From positions 310,001 to 374,000 of the forward strand of contig NZ_CP020538.1 in the NCBI RefSeq assembly GCF_002080435.1: a stretch of 64,000 bases of DNA, written 5' to 3'. Below the pieces are notes generated by a model. The model saw nothing but the letters and a program-made list of their open reading frames with translations, did not search any database and was not told the DNA's origin. Below, piece after piece: positions 3,080 to 61,558 of the stretch; position 1 is the first letter of the stretch; each line of letters opens with the position of its first letter. Source of the DNA: Sphingobium herbicidovorans. Its GTDB lineage: Bacteria > Pseudomonadota > Alphaproteobacteria > Sphingomonadales > Sphingomonadaceae. The translations under genes and the position numbers were made by a program.

Positions 3080-5080
3080 ATGGCAATCACCAAGATCCTG
3101 ATCGCGAACCGTGGCGAAATTGCGTGTCGTGTCATGCGCACGGCCAAGAAGATGGGTATCAAGACCGTGGCGGTCTATTCCGATGCTGACGCGCGCGCGC
3201 CGCATGTTCTGATGGCTGATGAAGCCGTCCATATCGGCCCGTCCCCTGCAGCGCAGTCCTATCTGATCGCCGACAAGATCATCCAGGCGTGCAAGGACAC
3301 GGGCGCCGATGCCGTGCATCCGGGCTACGGCTTCCTTTCCGAGCGCGAGAGCTTCCGCAAGGCGCTGGACGCCGAGGGCATCATCTTCGTCGGCCCCCCG
3401 GCCAACGCCATCGCCGCGATGGGCGACAAGATTGAATCCAAGAAGCTGGCCAAGGAAGCGGGCGTTAATGTCGTGCCCGGCTATGTCGGCGTGATCGAGG
3501 ACACCGAACATGCTGTCCGCATCTCCAACGAGATCGGCTATCCGGTGATGATGAAGGCTTCGGCCGGCGGTGGCGGCAAGGGCATGCGCCTCGCCTATTC
3601 CGAGCAGGACGTACGCGAAGGCTTCGAGGCGACCAAGCGTGAGGGCCTGAACAGCTTCGGCGATGACCGCGTGTTTATCGAGAAGTTCATCGAAAGCCCG
3701 CGCCACATCGAAATCCAGATCCTGGGCGACCAGCATGGCAACATCGTCTATCTGAACGAGCGGGAATGTTCGATCCAGCGCCGCCACCAGAAGGTGGTCG
3801 AGGAAGCGCCTTCACCCTTCGTTTCCCCTGAAATGCGCAAGAAGATGGGCGAGCAATGCGTCGCCCTGGCGCGCGCGGTCGGTTATTTCAGCGCCGGCAC
3901 CGTCGAACTGATCGTGTCGGGCGCGGACAAGACCGGCGACGGCTTCTACTTCCTGGAAATGAACACGCGTTTGCAGGTGGAGCATCCGGTCACGGAAGAA
4001 ATCACGGGCCTCGATCTGGTCGAACAGATGATCCGCGTTGCGAATGGCGAGGAACTGGGCTTCCGCCAGGAAGATGTGAAGATCAATGGCTGGTCGGTCG
4101 AGAACCGGGTCTATGCCGAAGACCCCTATCGGGGGTTTCTGCCATCGACGGGCCGCTTGATCCGCTACAACCCGCCCGAAGAGGGTACGGATGCGACTGG
4201 CGCGAAGATCCGCGTCGATGACGGCGTGACCGAGGGCGGCGAGGTCAGCATGTTCTATGACCCGATGATCGCCAAGCTGATCACCTGGGCCCCGACCCGT
4301 CTCGAAGCGATCGACAAGCAGATCGAGGCGCTCGACAAGTTCGAGATCGAAGGCCCGGGCCACAATATCGATTTCGTGTCCGCACTGATGCAGCATGAGC
4401 GGTTCCGTTCGGGCAACATCACCACCGGCTTCATCGCCGAGGAATATCCCGATGGTTTCACCGGTGCTCCGGCGTCAGAGACTTTGCTGAAGCGCCTGTC
4501 GGCGGTCGGGGCCTTCGCCGCAATGGCGCAGGCCGACCGTGCGCGTCGCATCGACGGACAGCTTGGCAAGAGGCTGAAAGCGCCTACCGGTTGGCAGGTT
4601 AAGATTGGCGACACAGTGCATGACGTTATCATCAACGGGGATGACGTCACGGTCGATGGCGATCCGATCGACATGGCGCTGGAATATACGCCCGGAGATC
4701 GTCTGATCGAGGCGGAGTTTGGCGAAGAGGAACTGGCGGTGAAGATCACGCCCGTCCGTTCGGGATTTGTCCTGACCGCGCATGGCGCCAGCCACAAGCT
4801 GCGCATCCTGCCTGCTCATGCCGCGCCGCATGCCAAGCATATGATCGAAAAGATCCCGCCCGATCTGTCGCGCTTCCTGATCTGCCCGATGCCCGGCTTG
4901 CTGGTGGCGTTGCATGTCGAGGCAGGCGACAAGGTTGAAGCGGGCCAGCCTCTCGCCGTAATCGAGGCGATGAAGATGGAAAACATCCTGCGCGCGCAAA
5001 AGGCCGGCGTTGTGAAAAACGTGTCTGCGGCCCAGGGCGAAAGCCTGCCGGTCGATGCGATTATTCTGGAAATGGAATGA
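3080..5080 (+). CDS. pccA: Propionyl-CoA carboxylase alpha subunit (biotin carboxylase + BCCP)
   Basis: ATP-dependent carboxylation of biotin and presentation of CO2 to the beta subunit, which makes methylmalonyl-CoA from propionyl-CoA. 666 aa, the usual length. Order: biotin-carboxylase N domain (ILIANRGEIACRVMRT), ATP-grasp with the glycine loop KASAGGGGKGM (about residues 155-165), a C-terminal carboxylase domain, a linker, and a biotinyl domain with EAMKMEN, whose lysine is K632. The start ATG at 3080 has AAGGACAG upstream. It sits downstream of the mutase and biotin synthase; the beta subunit is not in the window and is presumably upstream. A methylcrotonyl- or acetyl-CoA carboxylase subunit would look similar, but the neighbouring mutase favours propionyl-CoA. 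Confidence 0.93.
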   Translation: MAITKILIANRGEIACRVMRTAKKMGIKTVAVYSDADARAPHVLMADEAVHIGPSPAAQSYLIADKIIQACKDTGADAVHPGYGFLSERESFRKALDAEGIIFVGPPANAIAAMGDKIESKKLAKEAGVNVVPGYVGVIEDTEHAVRISNEIGYPVMMKASAGGGGKGMRLAYSEQDVREGFEATKREGLNSFGDDRVFIEKFIESPRHIEIQILGDQHGNIVYLNERECSIQRRHQKVVEEAPSPFVSPEMRKKMGEQCVALARAVGYFSAGTVELIVSGADKTGDGFYFLEMNTRLQVEHPVTEEITGLDLVEQMIRVANGEELGFRQEDVKINGWSVENRVYAEDPYRGFLPSTGRLIRYNPPEEGTDATGAKIRVDDGVTEGGEVSMFYDPMIAKLITWAPTRLEAIDKQIEALDKFEIEGPGHNIDFVSALMQHERFRSGNITTGFIAEEYPDGFTGAPASETLLKRLSAVGAFAAMAQADRARRIDGQLGKRLKAPTGWQVKIGDTVHDVIINGDDVTVDGDPIDMALEYTPGDRLIEAEFGEEELAVKITPVRSGFVLTAHGASHKLRILPAHAAPHAKHMIEKIPPDLSRFLICPMPGLLVALHVEAGDKVEAGQPLAVIEAMKMENILRAQKAGVVKNVSAAQGESLPVDAIILEME

Positions 5081-5147
5081 CGGCGTGGGCGAAGCAGCGG
5101 CTTGAGATACGCCAGCAGCTTTCGCTTCGCCTGACACCCGCATGATG

Positions 5148-5175
5148 ACGGGATCATGATTTGCCATGATCCCGT
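5148..5175 (+). terminator. Hairpin downstream of pccA
   Basis: Perfect 11-bp stem (ACGGGATCATG / CATGATCCCGT) with a 6-nt loop, 70 bp after the pccA stop, followed by only a weak T content (CTCT). It probably ends the propionate operon. The rest of 5081-5369 contains no convincing gene. Confidence 0.6.
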
Positions 5176-5369
5176 CTCTAGCACCAGGCACATTGTCGCT
5201 CGCGCAAGCTGCAGGCACCGTTGCTGTGCCTCTGCTATGTTGCTGACCAGCTGGGCGCCCGACTGATCGCCGACAGTATGTAGCACTCGAGATATTCACG
5301 GTAGCAATGCTTGCTCCCGCCTCCTGCTTCTCTAAAGATCGCCTGACGGCAGTTCGAAAGGGGGGCGCA

Positions 5370-6962
5370 ATGAGCGGGACGGCGGCCAGCGGCGGCCATG
5401 TGATAGATGTAAAACGCGACCGCCTGGTCATTACGGCATCTGCGCTCGGCACCGTGTTCGAATGGTATGATTTTTACATCTACGGCGTCCTCGCGCCGAT
5501 CATTGGGCGGACATTCTTTCCTACCGACAATCCGACGGTCGAACTGCTCTATTCGCTGGCAGGCTTCGCCATCGGCTTCGGGTTCCGACCGTTGGGCGCT
5601 GCGCTTTTTGGTTTTTTGGGAGACCGATGGGGGCGCAAATATACGTTTCTCGCGACTATCGTCCTGATGGGCGGCGCGACTGCGGGTGTGGGCCTTACGC
5701 CGTCTGCGGCGAGCATCGGGCTGGCCGCGCCCGTCATCCTCATTTTACTGCGGATCGCGCAGGGGCTCGCGCTGGGTGGTGAATATGGCGGGGCGGCCAT
5801 TTACGTGGCCGAACATGCGCCGCCGGGAAAGCGCGGGTTTTACACCAGTTTCATCCAGGCTGGCGTGATCGGCGGCTTCATTCTGTCGCTGGTCGTCGTT
5901 GTCGGCACGCAATGGGTCGTCGGCAAGGCGGTGTGGGACGATTGGGGCTGGCGTCTGCCATTCATCTTCTCGCTCGCATTGCTCGCAATTTCGCTGTGGA
6001 TGCGGCTCATGTTGCGCGAAAGCCCGGTGTTCACAGCGATGAAAAATGCGGGCGAGCGGTCGCGAAATCCGCTGAAGGAAGCGTTCACCTATCCCGGAAA
6101 CAGGCGGCGAATGCTGGTCGCGATGATCGGGATCGCGGCGGGTTTCACCGTCATCGCCTATACGGTCATGTTCCAGGCCCTCTATTTTCTGCAGAGCGGC
6201 CTGCACGTTTCGCCCGGCATTGCTCAACTGCTGGTTGGTGGAAGCGCCTTCGCGGGGATGGGGGCATTTGTCTTCTTTGGCTGGCTGTCCGATCGAGTGG
6301 GCCGCAGGAAGCCGATCATCATCGGCTATGTGCTCGTCTTGCTGCTGCTCATGCCGCTTTATCAATTCATGGGCAGCGTCGCGAACCCCGCGCTTTATCG
6401 GGCGGCGGACCGTGCGCCCGTCGTCGTAACCGGCCCCGATTGCAGCTTTGATCCGTTCGCCAAGGTCCAGCCTAGCGCCTGCGGGAAATTACTCGATCAT
6501 TTTTCGAAGCGTGGCATTCCCTATGAGAAGGCCGGGGCTGAACGGACAGCGGTGACCATCGGCGGCACGACAGTCCAGGACCTAAGTGATGAAGGACTGG
6601 ACAAAGCCCTTATTGCGCGGGGATATGATTTTGGCGTGGTGAAACCCGACTGGCCGCGCGCCATGCTGATATTCCTCGCATTGCTGCTGCTCTGGACTTT
6701 GTCGGGCGCAACCTATGGTCCGGTGGCGGCGCTGCTGTCGGAATATTTCCCGGCACGCATCCGCTATAGTTCGCTTTCGATCCCCTATCATATCGGTACG
6801 GGCTATTTCGGCGGTTTCCTGCCGCTCGTCAGCCAGTATATTGTCGCGCGGACCGGCGATCCTTATGCGGGGCTGTGGTACACGATCGTTGTGGTGGCGG
6901 TAGCATTGGTGACCTGTCTGGTGGCGCTGCTGGAAACGCGCGACGCAAAGCTGGAAGCGTGA
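5370..6962 (+). CDS. MFS transporter, metabolite:H+ symporter type, with a large extracytoplasmic-loop insertion
   Basis: Inner-membrane secondary carrier, 530 aa from the ATG at 5370, which has AAGGGGGGC upstream; an in-frame ATG at 5307 lacks such a site. Family signs: TVFEWYDFYIYG in the first helix, FLGDRWGRKYTF in loop 2-3, GLALGGEYGGAAIYVAEH in helix 4-5, and a repeated loop motif WLSDRVGRRKP. Sphingomonads carry long versions of these proteins. Between two late helices (about residues 337-426) there is a soluble segment of roughly 90 residues with two cysteines (GPDCSF, SACGK), absent from the second MFS carrier in this window (50216). The substrate is unknown. Its stop overlaps the alanine racemase start by 3-4 bases, so the two are co-translated. 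Confidence 0.85.
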   Translation: MSGTAASGGHVIDVKRDRLVITASALGTVFEWYDFYIYGVLAPIIGRTFFPTDNPTVELLYSLAGFAIGFGFRPLGAALFGFLGDRWGRKYTFLATIVLMGGATAGVGLTPSAASIGLAAPVILILLRIAQGLALGGEYGGAAIYVAEHAPPGKRGFYTSFIQAGVIGGFILSLVVVVGTQWVVGKAVWDDWGWRLPFIFSLALLAISLWMRLMLRESPVFTAMKNAGERSRNPLKEAFTYPGNRRRMLVAMIGIAAGFTVIAYTVMFQALYFLQSGLHVSPGIAQLLVGGSAFAGMGAFVFFGWLSDRVGRRKPIIIGYVLVLLLLMPLYQFMGSVANPALYRAADRAPVVVTGPDCSFDPFAKVQPSACGKLLDHFSKRGIPYEKAGAERTAVTIGGTTVQDLSDEGLDKALIARGYDFGVVKPDWPRAMLIFLALLLLWTLSGATYGPVAALLSEYFPARIRYSSLSIPYHIGTGYFGGFLPLVSQYIVARTGDPYAGLWYTIVVVAVALVTCLVALLETRDAKLEA

Positions 6963-57354: not shown

Positions 57355-58155
57355 ATGACCTCCAATGCCAAGGCAAACCCCGCCGACATCATGCCGCTGG
57401 TTAACGTCATGGCCCGTTTGCGCGACCCGGATACCGGATGCCCTTGGGATATCCGACAGGACTTCGCCAGCATCGCACCCTATACGATAGAAGAAGCCTA
57501 TGAAGTCGCCGACGCGATAGAGCGTAACGATATGCCAGCGCTCAAGGATGAGTTGGGCGATCTGTTGCTCCAGGTCGCCTTCCATAGCCGGATGGCCGAA
57601 CAAGCGGGCCAGTTCACGATTCAGGACGTCATCGACGGCGTCACCGAAAAGATGATCCGCCGCCACCCGCACATTTTCGGCGACGGCATTTCTCGCGAGC
57701 ATGGGCACGCGCAATGGGAATCGATCAAGGCGGCTGAACGCGCCGAACGCGACACCGACGGCAGCGCCCTTGCAGGCGTCGCAAAGGCTCTACCCGCCCT
57801 GCTCCGTGCTGAAAAAATCCAGAAGCGCGCGGCCCGGACAGGCTTCGATTGGCCCGACACACGGGGTGTGATCGCGAAGATCGAGGAAGATTTGCAGGAG
57901 GTCCACGACGCCGCGTCTCCGGAAGACCATCATGAAGAAATCGGCGACCTGCTGTTTGCCGTCGTCAATCTGGCCCGCCACCTGAAGGTCGATGCGGAAA
58001 CCGCCCTGCGTTCGGCCAATGCCAAGTTCGAAGCGCGCTTTCGCATCATGGAGGATATCGCCGGGGAAAAGTTTAATGCTCTGTCGCTGGATGAGAAAGA
58101 ACAGCTTTGGCAGCGCGCCAAGCACCGCCTCCTCCAGCAACGTCCGGTCAGCTAA
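57355..58155 (+). CDS. mazG: Nucleoside triphosphate pyrophosphohydrolase MazG
   Basis: Hydrolyses (d)NTPs to monophosphates; in E. coli it also lowers ppGpp. 266 aa with two MazG domains: first CPWDIRQDFASIAPYTIEEAYEVADAI and DELGDLLLQVAFHSRMAE with the EExxE/ExxD metal ligands, second IEEDLQEVHDAAS and HHEEIGDLLFAVVNLARHL. The IS upstream ends 29 bp before the ATG, leaving AGGA as the ribosome site but almost no native promoter; it may be read from an IS-derived or distant promoter. Convergent with hflX, overlapping by 4 bases. Confidence 0.94.
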   Translation: MTSNAKANPADIMPLVNVMARLRDPDTGCPWDIRQDFASIAPYTIEEAYEVADAIERNDMPALKDELGDLLLQVAFHSRMAEQAGQFTIQDVIDGVTEKMIRRHPHIFGDGISREHGHAQWESIKAAERAERDTDGSALAGVAKALPALLRAEKIQKRAARTGFDWPDTRGVIAKIEEDLQEVHDAASPEDHHEEIGDLLFAVVNLARHLKVDAETALRSANAKFEARFRIMEDIAGEKFNALSLDEKEQLWQRAKHRLLQQRPVS

Positions 58156-59486
58156 TCATCGGCTCGTTTCCGGAACCGGGCCAGCGCTGACTCCGACAGC
58201 CGAACATCGACGACCATATCGCCCTCTGCGGCGTGGCTCCCGATCACCTCGCCATGTTCATGCAGCCATGCAAGAGCCGCTCCATCCGACAGCGACACAT
58301 GAAGTTGATGCACCTGCGCTCCGGCGGTCAACCGGCTGCTGATCTTGCGCTGCAGGTCGTCCACCCCTTCGCCGGTGAGGGCCGAGAGAATCACGACGTC
58401 ATCGCGTCGGGCAGCCATTTCCCTCACCAGGGCAGCCGCATCATCATCCAGCAGATCGAGCTTGTTCCACGCCTCGATAATCGGCGGAGGTTCGACGGCA
58501 TCTTCCCCGCCTTCGAGTGCGCCCTCACCTGCCAGGCCAAGTTCGCTCAATACGTCGATCACATCATCCCTCTGCGCATCGCTGTCGGGATGTGCGATGT
58601 CGCGAACATGGATAATGAGGTCGGCGGACAGCACTTCCTCCAATGTCGCCCGGAATGCGGCGATCAGCTGAGTCGGCAGGTCGGACACAAACCCCACGGT
58701 GTCGGAAAGGATCGCCTTGTCCAATCCAGGCAGCGCGATCTGCCGCATCGTCGGATCGAGCGTGGCGAACAGCAGATCCTCCGCCATCACATGCGCGCCC
58801 GTCATCCGGTTAAAGAGGGTTGATTTGCCGGCGTTGGTGTAGCCCACCAATGCGATCACCGGCCAAGGCGCGCGTTGCCGCCGCGCCCGATGCAGGCTCC
58901 GCGTGCGCGTGACCTGATCCAGCTCGCGACGAATCTTCGCCATCCGGTCGCGGATCATGCGACGGTCCGCTTCGATCTGGGTCTCGCCCGGCCCGCCCAG
59001 AAAGCCAAAACCGCCCCGCTGCCGTTCCAGGTGGGTCCAACTGCGGACCAGCCGCCCTGCCTGATAATCCAGATGGGCCAATTCGACCTGAAGCCGTCCC
59101 TCATTGGTGGCTGCACGCTCGCCGAAAATTTCCAGGATGAGGCCCGTCCGGTCGATCACCTTGGCTTCGGTCGCCTTTTCCAGATTGCTCTGCTGAACAG
59201 GACTGAGGGCATTGTCGACAATGACCAATTCCGCTTGCTCGGCCCGCGCCAGGGTGGCGATCTGGTCAACCTGACCGCTGCCGAACAGCGTCGCGGGCTT
59301 GCGATCACGTACGCGGAATGCTTGCGCCGCGCGCACATCGATGCCGATCGCCAGCGCAAGGCCCTTGGCCTCTTCAAGTCGGGCGTCGCTGTCGCGGCGC
59401 TCCATACCATGCGTTTCGGCGCGCACGACGACGGCGCGCGCGCCGCGCGATACCTCATCATCAGAATCGCGATTGAATACCGCCAT
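58152..59486 (-). CDS. hflX: Ribosome-associated GTPase HflX
   Basis: 444 aa GTPase that splits stalled or heat-damaged ribosomes. N-terminal HflX domain (FGSGQVDQIA, IVDNALSPVQQSNLE, DRTGLILEIFGERAATNEGRLQVELA), linker helices with GGFGFLGGPGETQIEADRR, then the GTPase: G1 GYTNAGKSTLFN, G3 SDTVGFVSDLP, G4 NKLDLLD. Located 65 bp downstream of hfq, as in the conserved hfq-hflX pair. Confidence 0.95.
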   Translation of the reverse strand: MAVFNRDSDDEVSRGARAVVVRAETHGMERRDSDARLEEAKGLALAIGIDVRAAQAFRVRDRKPATLFGSGQVDQIATLARAEQAELVIVDNALSPVQQSNLEKATEAKVIDRTGLILEIFGERAATNEGRLQVELAHLDYQAGRLVRSWTHLERQRGGFGFLGGPGETQIEADRRMIRDRMAKIRRELDQVTRTRSLHRARRQRAPWPVIALVGYTNAGKSTLFNRMTGAHVMAEDLLFATLDPTMRQIALPGLDKAILSDTVGFVSDLPTQLIAAFRATLEEVLSADLIIHVRDIAHPDSDAQRDDVIDVLSELGLAGEGALEGGEDAVEPPPIIEAWNKLDLLDDDAAALVREMAARRDDVVILSALTGEGVDDLQRKISSRLTAGAQVHQLHVSLSDGAALAWLHEHGEVIGSHAAEGDMVVDVRLSESALARFRKRADD

Positions 59487-59551
59487 GAGCGCTTAACGCA
59501 TCAGACGCCGGCCCGCTTCATCAGAAGGCAAGCCGAACGAGCAGGAACGGG

Positions 59552-60034
59552 TCAATCCTCGCCCTCGCCTTCGCCGCTCAGGTCGAGCGCGTGGAGGGGC
59601 TGAACCGTCGAGATAGCGTGCTTGTAGACGAGCTGAACCATGCCGTCGCGTTCCAGCAGCATGCAGAACAGGTCGAACGCAGCGATCTCCCCTTGCAGCA
59701 TCACGCCGTTCACCAGGAACATCGTCACGGGGCTGCCCGACTTGCGAACGGCGCTCAGGAAAATCTCCTGCAGCAACTTCGGTTTCCCGTTGCCGTCGCT
59801 CGCCTTACGCAGATCGGTCAGGTCCATGGACTGCGCGGGCATGACGGTAGAGATGGCATGCTTGTATACCAGCTGCGACTGACCATCGCGCCGCAACAGG
59901 ACGGAGAAGTTGTCAAACCAGGTGATGATGCCCTGCAGCTTCACGCCCTTGACCAGGAACATGGTCACCGGAGTTTTGCTCTTGCGCAGATTGTTCAGGA
60001 ATATGTCCTGAAGATTATTGAGTTTTTCTGCCAT
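59552..60034 (-). CDS. hfq: RNA chaperone Hfq with two tandem Sm domains
   Basis: 160 aa, twice the usual length: two Hfq domains offset by exactly 80 residues ([10 protein letters not shown] at 26-35 and [10 protein letters not shown] at 106-115; YKHAISTV at 57-64 and 137-144). Hfq matches small RNAs with mRNAs. Proximal-face residues (Gln9/89, Lys58-His59, Lys138-His139) are kept in both. Faces differ: E. coli Lys31 is Lys32 in the first but Met112 in the second, and the rim pattern RKSK becomes RKSG. Three such chains could form one six-domain ring (inference). The tail is acidic (GEGEGED). Gene order ntrX-hfq-hflX is standard. Confidence 0.95.
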
Positions 60035-60184
60035 GGTCTTCGCCTTATTGGCGGGACGTTACCCGCTCTCGCACCCCTGGGCAGGGTGTCTTGCCTGCTC
60101 CCGCCTGCCGGAAGCGATAGAGAAGTTACCGCAATTGCGAAGGGCCGTCCATTCCCCAGATGCGGTATTGCTTCACCAACTTGG

Positions 60185-61558
60185 TCAGCTATCCTTTCCG
60201 TCGGTAATGCCCAGCAGCTTGAGCTTGCGATGTAGCGCTGACCGCTCCATCCCGATGAAGGTCGCCGTCCGCGAAATATTCCCTGAAAAGCGCCTGATCT
60301 GGATGCGCAGATATTCGCGTTCGAAACTCTCCCTCGCCTCGCGCAGCGGGGCGCCCATGATGGCGGACTGACCCATTCCCTCGCCGGAACCGTTGCTGGT
60401 CAGTTCGCTGGGCAGCATGTCCAGTTCGATCCGTCCGATCCGCTCGCCGGGCGCCAGAATCATCGTCCGTTCGATGACGTTGCGCAACTGACGAACATTG
60501 CCGGGCCACTCATTGGCCTGAAGGGCAGCCATGGCGTCACTTGCGATTTCGGGCGATGGCACGCGGCGGTCGGCGGCAAAACGCGCCAGATAATGTTCGA
60601 CCAGCGGCGGAATGTCATCGCGCCGTTCCGACAGTGGCGGGATTATGAGCGGCACGACATTGAGACGATAGAACAGGTCCTCGCGGAACCGGCGTTCTTC
60701 GATCTCAACGCTCAGGTCGCGCGCGGTGGAGGAGATTACGCGCACATCCACCTTGACCTGCCGTTGTCCGCTAACGCGCGTAAAGCTCTGGTCTGTCAGG
60801 ACGCGCAATATCTTGCCCTGCGTGGTCAGCGGCATGTCGGCTATTTCGTCCAGGTACAGCGTGCCGCCGTGCGCCTGCTCAAGATAGCCGGGGCGGACGA
60901 GTCCGCTGGGGTCCTCCACGCCAAACAACTCCTCTTCGACGCGGTCGGGGTCCATGCGCGCGGCGGCGACTATGATGAAGGGGGCATCGGCCCTGCCGCT
61001 CCAGCTATGGAGCATTCGCGCTGCTATTTCCTTGCCCACGCCGGCAGGGCCAGAAATCAGAACCCTGCTTCCCGTTCCTGCCACCTTCTTGATCGTCGCC
61101 CGGACGGCATTGATGGCGGTCGACGTTCCGGTAAGTTCGTCATCTTGGCCAAAACGGGCGCGCAACACCTGGTTTTCGCGCCGCAGCCTTTCCGTCTCGG
61201 TCGCACGAGAAACGAGGTGCAACAGGCGGTCCGCCTCGAACGGCTTTTCGATAAAGTCCGCCGCGCCCTTGCGAATTGCAGCTACGGCCGTGTCGATATT
61301 GCCATGGCCCGAAATCATCAGCACCGGAATGGTGGCGTCGCGCCGCTTGATCTCGTCGAGCAGTTCCAGCCCATCGAGCCTAGATCCCTGCAACCACACG
61401 TCCAGCAGGACCAGCGACGGTCGCCGGGCGTCCAACGCTTCGATCGCACTGTCGCTGTTGGCCGCCGTGCGGGTGGAAAAGCCTTCATCCTCAAGCACGC
61501 CCGCGACCAGGTCGCGAATGTCCTCTTCGTCATCGACTACCAGAATATCAAGCGCCAT
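60185..61558 (-). CDS. ntrX: Response regulator NtrX
   Basis: 457 aa: receiver domain with Asp53 (LVLLDVWLQ), AAA+ sigma-54-activator-type domain (GPAGVGKEIAARML, TLYLDEIADMP, GNVRQLRNVIERTM) and a C-terminal Fis-type helix-turn-helix (FSGNISRTATFIGMERSALHRKLK). The GAFTGA loop that contacts sigma-54 is missing: after EELFGVED the sequence goes on as PSGLVRPGYLEQAHGG. This is known for NtrX in several alphaproteobacteria and suggests a sigma-54-independent regulator. Partner kinase NtrY is upstream; the pair responds to nitrogen or redox state. Confidence 0.93.
   Translation of the reverse strand: MALDILVVDDEEDIRDLVAGVLEDEGFSTRTAANSDSAIEALDARRPSLVLLDVWLQGSRLDGLELLDEIKRRDATIPVLMISGHGNIDTAVAAIRKGAADFIEKPFEADRLLHLVSRATETERLRRENQVLRARFGQDDELTGTSTAINAVRATIKKVAGTGSRVLISGPAGVGKEIAARMLHSWSGRADAPFIIVAAARMDPDRVEEELFGVEDPSGLVRPGYLEQAHGGTLYLDEIADMPLTTQGKILRVLTDQSFTRVSGQRQVKVDVRVISSTARDLSVEIEERRFREDLFYRLNVVPLIIPPLSERRDDIPPLVEHYLARFAADRRVPSPEIASDAMAALQANEWPGNVRQLRNVIERTMILAPGERIGRIELDMLPSELTSNGSGEGMGQSAIMGAPLREARESFEREYLRIQIRRFSGNISRTATFIGMERSALHRKLKLLGITDGKDS

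Follow-up and report, generated by a model that had tools for sequence, protein, structure and literature searches.

The hfq gene of the window, by which we mean the whole stretch of 64,000 nucleotides that was analysed, lies on the minus strand at positions 59552..60034 (stop codon, 59552-59554). It is a single open frame with an ATG start and encodes a double-domain Hfq of 160 aa, a chain of 17.8 kDa. Hfq is an RNA-matchmaking protein whose usual form consists of six identical small subunits. On the same strand, hflX is the next gene downstream (58152..59486; TIGR03156, 443 bits) and ntrX the next gene upstream (60185..61558; NF051870, 748 bits). Scanning positions 59400-60400 for promoters and terminators gave no candidates. 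The protein was matched in two stretches by both PF17209 (191 bits against a cut-off of 27; 1.8e-57) and TIGR02383 (184 bits against a cut-off of 61.7). The double-domain NCBIfam model NF010691 covered residues 1-160 (311 bits; cut-off, 270).

Profile matches place the first Hfq/Sm domain, R1, at residues 8-66 (E. coli 7-64; 59837..60013) and the second, R2, at residues 88-146 (59597..59773). All coordinates given here are on the minus strand, and residue positions within the domains follow E. coli numbering throughout. By alignment, the two domains are joined by a linker of 21 residues (67-87; 59774..59836), in which the structural model described below places a short helix at residues 73-79, and an acidic C-terminal tail of 14 residues is read from the sequence after R2 (147-160; 59555..59596). 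A domain of 59 residues and a linker of 21 add up to a repeat period of 80. The original prediction, made from the sequence alone, had described two complete domains at exactly this period, each carrying the motif YKHAIS; the two PF17209 stretches and the NF010691 match bear out the former, and the motif is present in both R1 and R2. Linkers of the other doubles compared are 17 to 24 residues long (15 to 27 in one fast-evolving genus, g13), and 20 to 22 residues long in 127 of the 135 distinct doubles outside that genus.

Both PF17209 matches of the genome fall in this one open reading frame. The original prediction had also asked whether a second, single-domain hfq elsewhere might carry the function. 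No such gene, and no third PF17209 match, was found by profile search of the 99.99%-complete genome, and this candidate was rejected. The hfq gene of the window is the only Hfq detected in the genome.

For comparison, 172 two-domain and 51 one-domain ORFs were taken from fetched loci. Merging identical ORFs left 162 distinct doubles, namely, 135 plus 27 of genus g13, which was counted separately throughout, and 43 distinct single-domain Hfq proteins of the order. The named loci among the fetched ones are the top 80 of 585 retrieved by query-derived words, one of which contained Met31. As a control for this selection bias, the counts were redone on 56 distinct doubles fetched by the family profile alone. 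The structure alignment (A1) comprised 97 sequences.

Double Hfq had been expected across sphingomonads, and a hand count over 396 genomes of the order agreed. In the window's family (f1, inferred from the named loci to be Sphingomonadaceae), 300 of 313 genomes had two PF17209 matches and 13 had one. Among the 83 genomes of other families, 76 had one match, six had none, and one (G001) had two on different contigs. The figure of 300 refers to genomes with two matches; a shared frame was seen in the 172 ORFs of fetched loci, among which no double locus had its domains split between frames. At the level of the class, 319 of 385 genomes had a match and two genomes outside the family had two, G454 with near-full-length matches on different contigs and G701 with partial matches at contig ends. 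At the level of the phylum, 295 of 398 genomes had a match; the seven outside the family that had two, five of them in family f221, carried these either on separate contigs or at a distance of more than 100 kb. The samples of order, class, and phylum overlap. Within the sampled genomes, the tandem form is seen only in Sphingomonadaceae.

A tree of HflX and NtrX was built from 130 loci, comprising 110 doubles (the window, 40 of the 80 named loci, 59 profile-fetched loci, and 10 of genus g13), 13 single-domain Sphingomonadaceae, and, as an outgroup, seven single-domain loci from other families. All 110 doubles formed one clade with a local support of 1.0. The 13 single-domain Sphingomonadaceae branched outside it, with one weak node (0.55) among them, and the seven outgroup loci lay outside the family. 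Both ntrX and hflX were found at the locus in 12 of these 13 genomes, and ntrX only in the thirteenth. Moreover, Met24 is common to R1 (128 of 135), R2 (134 of 135), and the distinct single-domain proteins of the family (11 of 12), while 30 of the 31 other singles have Val24. Taken together, the clade of doubles, the retained locus, and the common Met24 point to one in-frame tandem duplication of hfq, which would have occurred in place in an ancestor within Sphingomonadaceae, with no loss among the sampled genomes. Two other origins were considered. A horizontal origin of R2 is not favored, given the Met24 common to R1, R2, and the singles of the family. Nor is a loss of R2 in the single-domain genera, all 13 of which lie outside the doubles in the tree; in addition, their 12 distinct proteins have Asn28, not the Lys28 of R1.

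At the thirteenth single-domain locus (L153, genome G339), the frame of hfq, at about 4759-5541 on the plus strand, runs on for 155 residues past the domain. HflX was not found within this 10-kb locus, unlike in its 12 relatives.

The two halves differ at fixed positions of the distal face. In the window, alignment places Lys at both position 28 (59948..59950) and position 31 (59939..59941) of R1, and Asn (59708..59710) and Met (59699..59701), respectively, at those of R2. All 43 singles have Asn28 and Lys31, all 135 doubles outside g13 have Lys28 and Lys31 in R1, and all 135 have Asn28 and Met31 in R2. The same residues were invariant in both halves of the 56 profile-fetched doubles (56/56). 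The change from Lys to Met at the equivalent of Lys31, on which the original prediction had remarked, is therefore fixed among the distinct doubles outside g13. Compared with the singles, R1 and R2 each show a derived change of their own: as judged from the alignment, the distal face of R1 has gained one lysine, and that of R2 has lost one. A double Hfq from a 2.1-Mb genome (L163, G201), whose locus has a GC content of 48%, has K28/K31 and N28/M31 as elsewhere.

Two further positions separate the halves. Position 63 is Met in all 43 singles and in 133 of 135 R1 domains, and Gln in 135 of 135 R2 domains; position 41 is Asn in 42 of 43 singles and 135 of 135 R1 domains, and Leu in 129 of 135 R2 domains. 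In the window, the further changes from R1 to R2 are N13S, W38A, N41L, R47E, and M63Q. Position 63 is found at 59840-59842 in R1, where Met precedes the linker, and at 59600-59602 in R2, where Gln precedes the C-terminal tail. The identity of this residue may track what comes after the domain, as the triple forms described below have Met63, Met63, and then Gln63. The uridine-pocket residues Q8, F42, Y55, K56, and H57 are present in both halves of the window Hfq. Over the 135 doubles, mean column entropy in R1 and R2 was 0.00 and 0.01 bits for the proximal pocket, 0.01 and 0.00 bits for the distal face, and 0.45 and 0.75 bits for other columns. R2 evolved faster overall, with a mean pairwise identity outside g13 of 0.77 compared with 0.90 for R1.

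Divergence was most pronounced at the rim. R1 of the window carries RKSK at positions 16-19 (59975..59986) and Arg at position 47 (59891..59893), whereas in R2 the motif is degraded to RKSG (59735..59746) and the charge at position 47 is reversed to Glu (59651..59653), all by alignment. The five rim positions 16, 17, 19, 47, and 48 are all basic in every single (43/43) and every R1 (135/135). R2 retains between one and five of these basic residues, with a mean of 2.68 (all five in only 8 of 135), and has a mean of 1.17 acidic residues among them. Arg48 is kept in 135 and Arg16 in 105 of the 135 R2 domains; the losses are at positions 17, 19, and 47. Position 47 is Arg in 42 of 43 singles and in 135 of 135 R1 domains, and Glu in 76, Gln in 34, Arg in 20, and something else in five R2 domains. 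A complete basic rim patch, as is characteristic of Hfq, is found in R1 only. The original prediction that the rim of R2 is one basic residue short is borne out by RKSK against RKSG, but the asymmetry of the halves as a whole was understated there, R47E being one of the further differences. The loss of the basic residue at position 19 proved general in R2, but what replaces it varies: R1 has Lys (132) or Arg (3), and R2 has Gly (44), Glu (33), Arg (16), Gln (13), Asp (10), Asn (9), Ala (4), Ser (4), or His (2). Asn13 and Phe39, which touch RydC on the rim of E. coli Hfq (PMC4337610), are each present in 135 of 135 R1 domains but in only 36 and 74 R2 domains, respectively. Mean column entropy over positions 13, 16, 17, 19, 47, and 48 was 0.17 bits in R1 and 1.71 bits in R2. 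The rim is thus where R2 has eroded most.

The same asymmetry is apparent in charge. Mean net charges over the 135 doubles were +4.87 for the R1 core, -0.04 for the linker, -1.05 for the R2 core, and -5.55 for the tail; singles had a core of +3.93 and a tail of -4.17 (42 singles, the run-on frame of L153 being excluded). The R1 core was more positive than the R2 core in 135 of 135 doubles outside g13, and 133 of the 135 had a more acidic tail than linker. As calculated from these sequences, the acidic tail follows R2 alone, and the linker after R1 is approximately neutral. The asymmetry of the halves put forward in the original prediction is real and conserved, although Lys28 of R1, Leu41 of R2, and the acidic tail after R2 alone had been missed. 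A fixed, face-specific division between the halves across the sampled family appears to be new; the double architecture itself was already known.

Genus g13 (27 genomes of 2.1 to 3.0 Mb; loci L113-L142) departs from this pattern in part. Its mean pairwise identity was 0.68 for R1 and 0.58 for R2, compared with 0.90 and 0.77 elsewhere, and its weakest R2 profile match scored 45 bits. In its 27 distinct doubles, R1 has Lys28 (27/27) and Lys or Arg at position 31 (27/27), and R2 has Asn28 in 26 but Met31 in only 19, with position 41 free in both halves. The difference in core charge between R1 and R2 holds in 27 of 27, but the greater acidity of the tail over the linker is seen in only 17 of these.

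Five proteins of 241 to 248 aa (P0002-P0006) contain three Hfq domains in the order R1, middle domain, R2. The middle domain is R1-like in P0003 and P0004 and R2-like with an R1-like Met63 in P0002, P0005, and P0006, as if it had arisen by unequal crossing-over. Misassembly is possible for these triple forms, since their longest contigs measure only 791 to 1621 bases. None of the 396 genomes of the order had three PF17209 matches.

AlphaFold2 modeled the two-domain chain with a pLDDT of 89.2 and a pTM of 0.85. Both halves adopt the Sm fold, with a helix (8-19 and 88-99, respectively) followed by five strands. The pTM value suggests that, in the model, the two halves are packed in a fixed relative position. 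The PDB matches of the model in two fold searches were Hfq. Among the 50 matches listed in each search, in one of which they span the first half only, there was no chain with two Hfq domains. Likewise, no solved double-domain Hfq was found among the 36 PDB sequences matching the family profile (E 0.001), all of which have 114 residues or fewer. A mutual-information scan between R1 and R2 placed none of the beta4-beta5 pairs in the top 40 compared with 1.3 expected, the alignment amounting to about 16 effective sequences. The scan thus lends an R1-R2 interface no support, although so small an effective number is insufficient for a decision.

On the evidence of these sequences, we think it probable that the only Hfq detected in this genome arose by one duplication, after which the halves specialized, and that three chains form a ring in which R1 serves annealing and R2 has a structural or autoinhibitory role. 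In such a pseudohexamer, three chains would close one Sm ring with R1 and R2 alternating. A 3-fold ring of three chains had been raised conditionally in the original prediction and is plausible. The uridine pocket would remain almost 6-fold, position 41 excepted, whereas the annealing rims and the acidic regulatory tips would each be reduced from six to three. On the distal A-R-N face, one subunit would present both lysines, K28 and K31, and the next neither, in alternation around the ring. In the Hfq of Caulobacter, each acidic tip lies against the basic rim of the adjacent protomer, which is thought to restrain annealing, and in the crystal, tails pack on neighboring hexamers too (PMC6561178); E. 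coli Hfq tails are said to have sufficient length to reach the rims of neighboring monomers (PMC5606850). If this contact of tip and adjacent rim is combined with an alternating ring, each R2 tail would have an R1 rim beside it, tips and rims being equal in number at three and three, and would dock on that basic rim. R1 would then be the annealing subunit, and R2 the structural and autoinhibitory one. The change K31M itself may be of little consequence, as E. coli Hfq K31 mutants were rated nearly fully functional in one summary (PMC5348863) and the contacts of K31 and N28 discussed for Pseudomonas aeruginosa Hfq involve backbone atoms (PMC8121710). A bolder version, which we offer tentatively and as possible rather than probable, is that the protein is a bacterial counterpart of heteromeric Sm rings: an obligate (R1R2)3 ring, derived by gene fusion from a uniform hexamer, in which three R1 rims would anneal RNA and be gated by the acidic tails of neighboring R2 domains, and in which the distal face, with lysines on every second subunit, would read A-rich RNA in steps of six nucleotides (ARN-ARN), not three.

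Other arrangements could produce some of the same features. Six chains might assemble into two homohexamers, one of R1 and one of R2, that are tied by the linkers and have different functions. The domains are complete and the pocket residues retained in R1 as well as R2, the usual linker of 20 to 22 residues could bridge two rings, and domain-specific divergence would be easy if each half touched only itself. However, a ring of R2 domains with their tails would be strongly acidic (-1.05 for the core and -5.55 for the tail per chain), and yet its RNA pockets are near-invariant. The loss of the R2 rim and the presence of a tail on R2 alone are better matched by pairing within one ring, and the modeled pTM of 0.85 suggests a fixed packing of the two domains of one chain. 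We therefore regard two stacked rings as unlikely. Another proposal is that R2 merely completes the ring as a spacer under relaxed constraint, its differences being neutral, fixed by descent, and without functional meaning. This would explain why the rim of R2 is degenerate, with no single new motif in place, and why R2 diverges faster than R1. It would not lead one to expect the complete lack of variation at positions 28 and 31 of each half and at Gln63 of R2 over 135 sequences, or an entropy close to zero in the proximal and distal columns of R2. In particular, the freezing of M31 and Q63 is unexpected under neutral decay, and the change at position 28 occurred in R1, the conserved half. Relaxed constraint as the sole explanation consequently seems improbable to us.

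An artefact of assembly or annotation, in the form of a chimeric contig or a mispredicted fusion, deserves consideration because tandem repeats are prone to misassembly, of which the five triple-domain proteins on their short contigs may be examples. Against this, two PF17209 matches recur in 300 of the 313 Sphingomonadaceae genomes, one-contig genomes included, both domains share one frame in 172 ORFs, and the window gene is one open frame from its ATG. Based on the window ORF, the whole-genome search, and the recurrence across the family, this explanation was rejected for the double form, and we give it practically no credence.

The number and role of the sites that are needed in an Hfq ring are hard to test, because any mutation affects all six equal sites at once. 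A natural experiment of this kind seems to be offered by Sphingomonadaceae, namely, an Hfq with fixed differences between halves that probably alternate. Residues 28, 31, 41, 47, and 63 and the tail can be named for comparison in cultivable species, for example, Zymomonas mobilis. The results also suggest that a 6-fold ring should not be assumed in work on Hfq-dependent small RNAs in this family.

The distribution of Hfq, perhaps including the tandem form, was reportedly surveyed by Sun, Zhulin, and Wartell in 2002. In the literature searched, which leaves most subscription journals outside its coverage, double-domain Hfq was encountered in one account only (Yang et al. 2010, PMC2877685), and no comparison of two Hfq halves was found, although an earlier description is possible. 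According to that account, Hfq of Z. mobilis (ZMO0347) has two Sm-like domains, like the window Hfq, as do its counterparts in six other Sphingomonadales species, and a mutant with an insertion in hfq shows a stress phenotype. The authors raised the question of whether only three double-domain proteins are needed for a ring and called for structural studies; the parts of the account covered contain neither a comparison of the halves nor a structure. The NF010691 (PRK14091) model, which has 176 positions and is matched over the same residues 1-160, is named "RNA chaperone Hfq" in the match table, and the entry makes no mention of half-specific residues. Single-domain Hfq proteins, which occur in the other families of Sphingomonadales and in some genera of Sphingomonadaceae, are closer to R1 than to R2 (mean identity, 0.81 versus 0.65); unlike the doubles, they combine Asn28 with Lys31 and carry the tail after their sole domain. 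The seven two-gene hfq genomes, five of them in family f221, also have two domains per genome, but in separate genes rather than in one chain. The best match among solved structures was Caulobacter crescentus Hfq (PDB 6gwk), which aligned to R1 with 118 bits. It resembles the window Hfq in having a basic rim and an acidic tip and differs from it in having one domain per chain and six equal subunits (PMC6561178).
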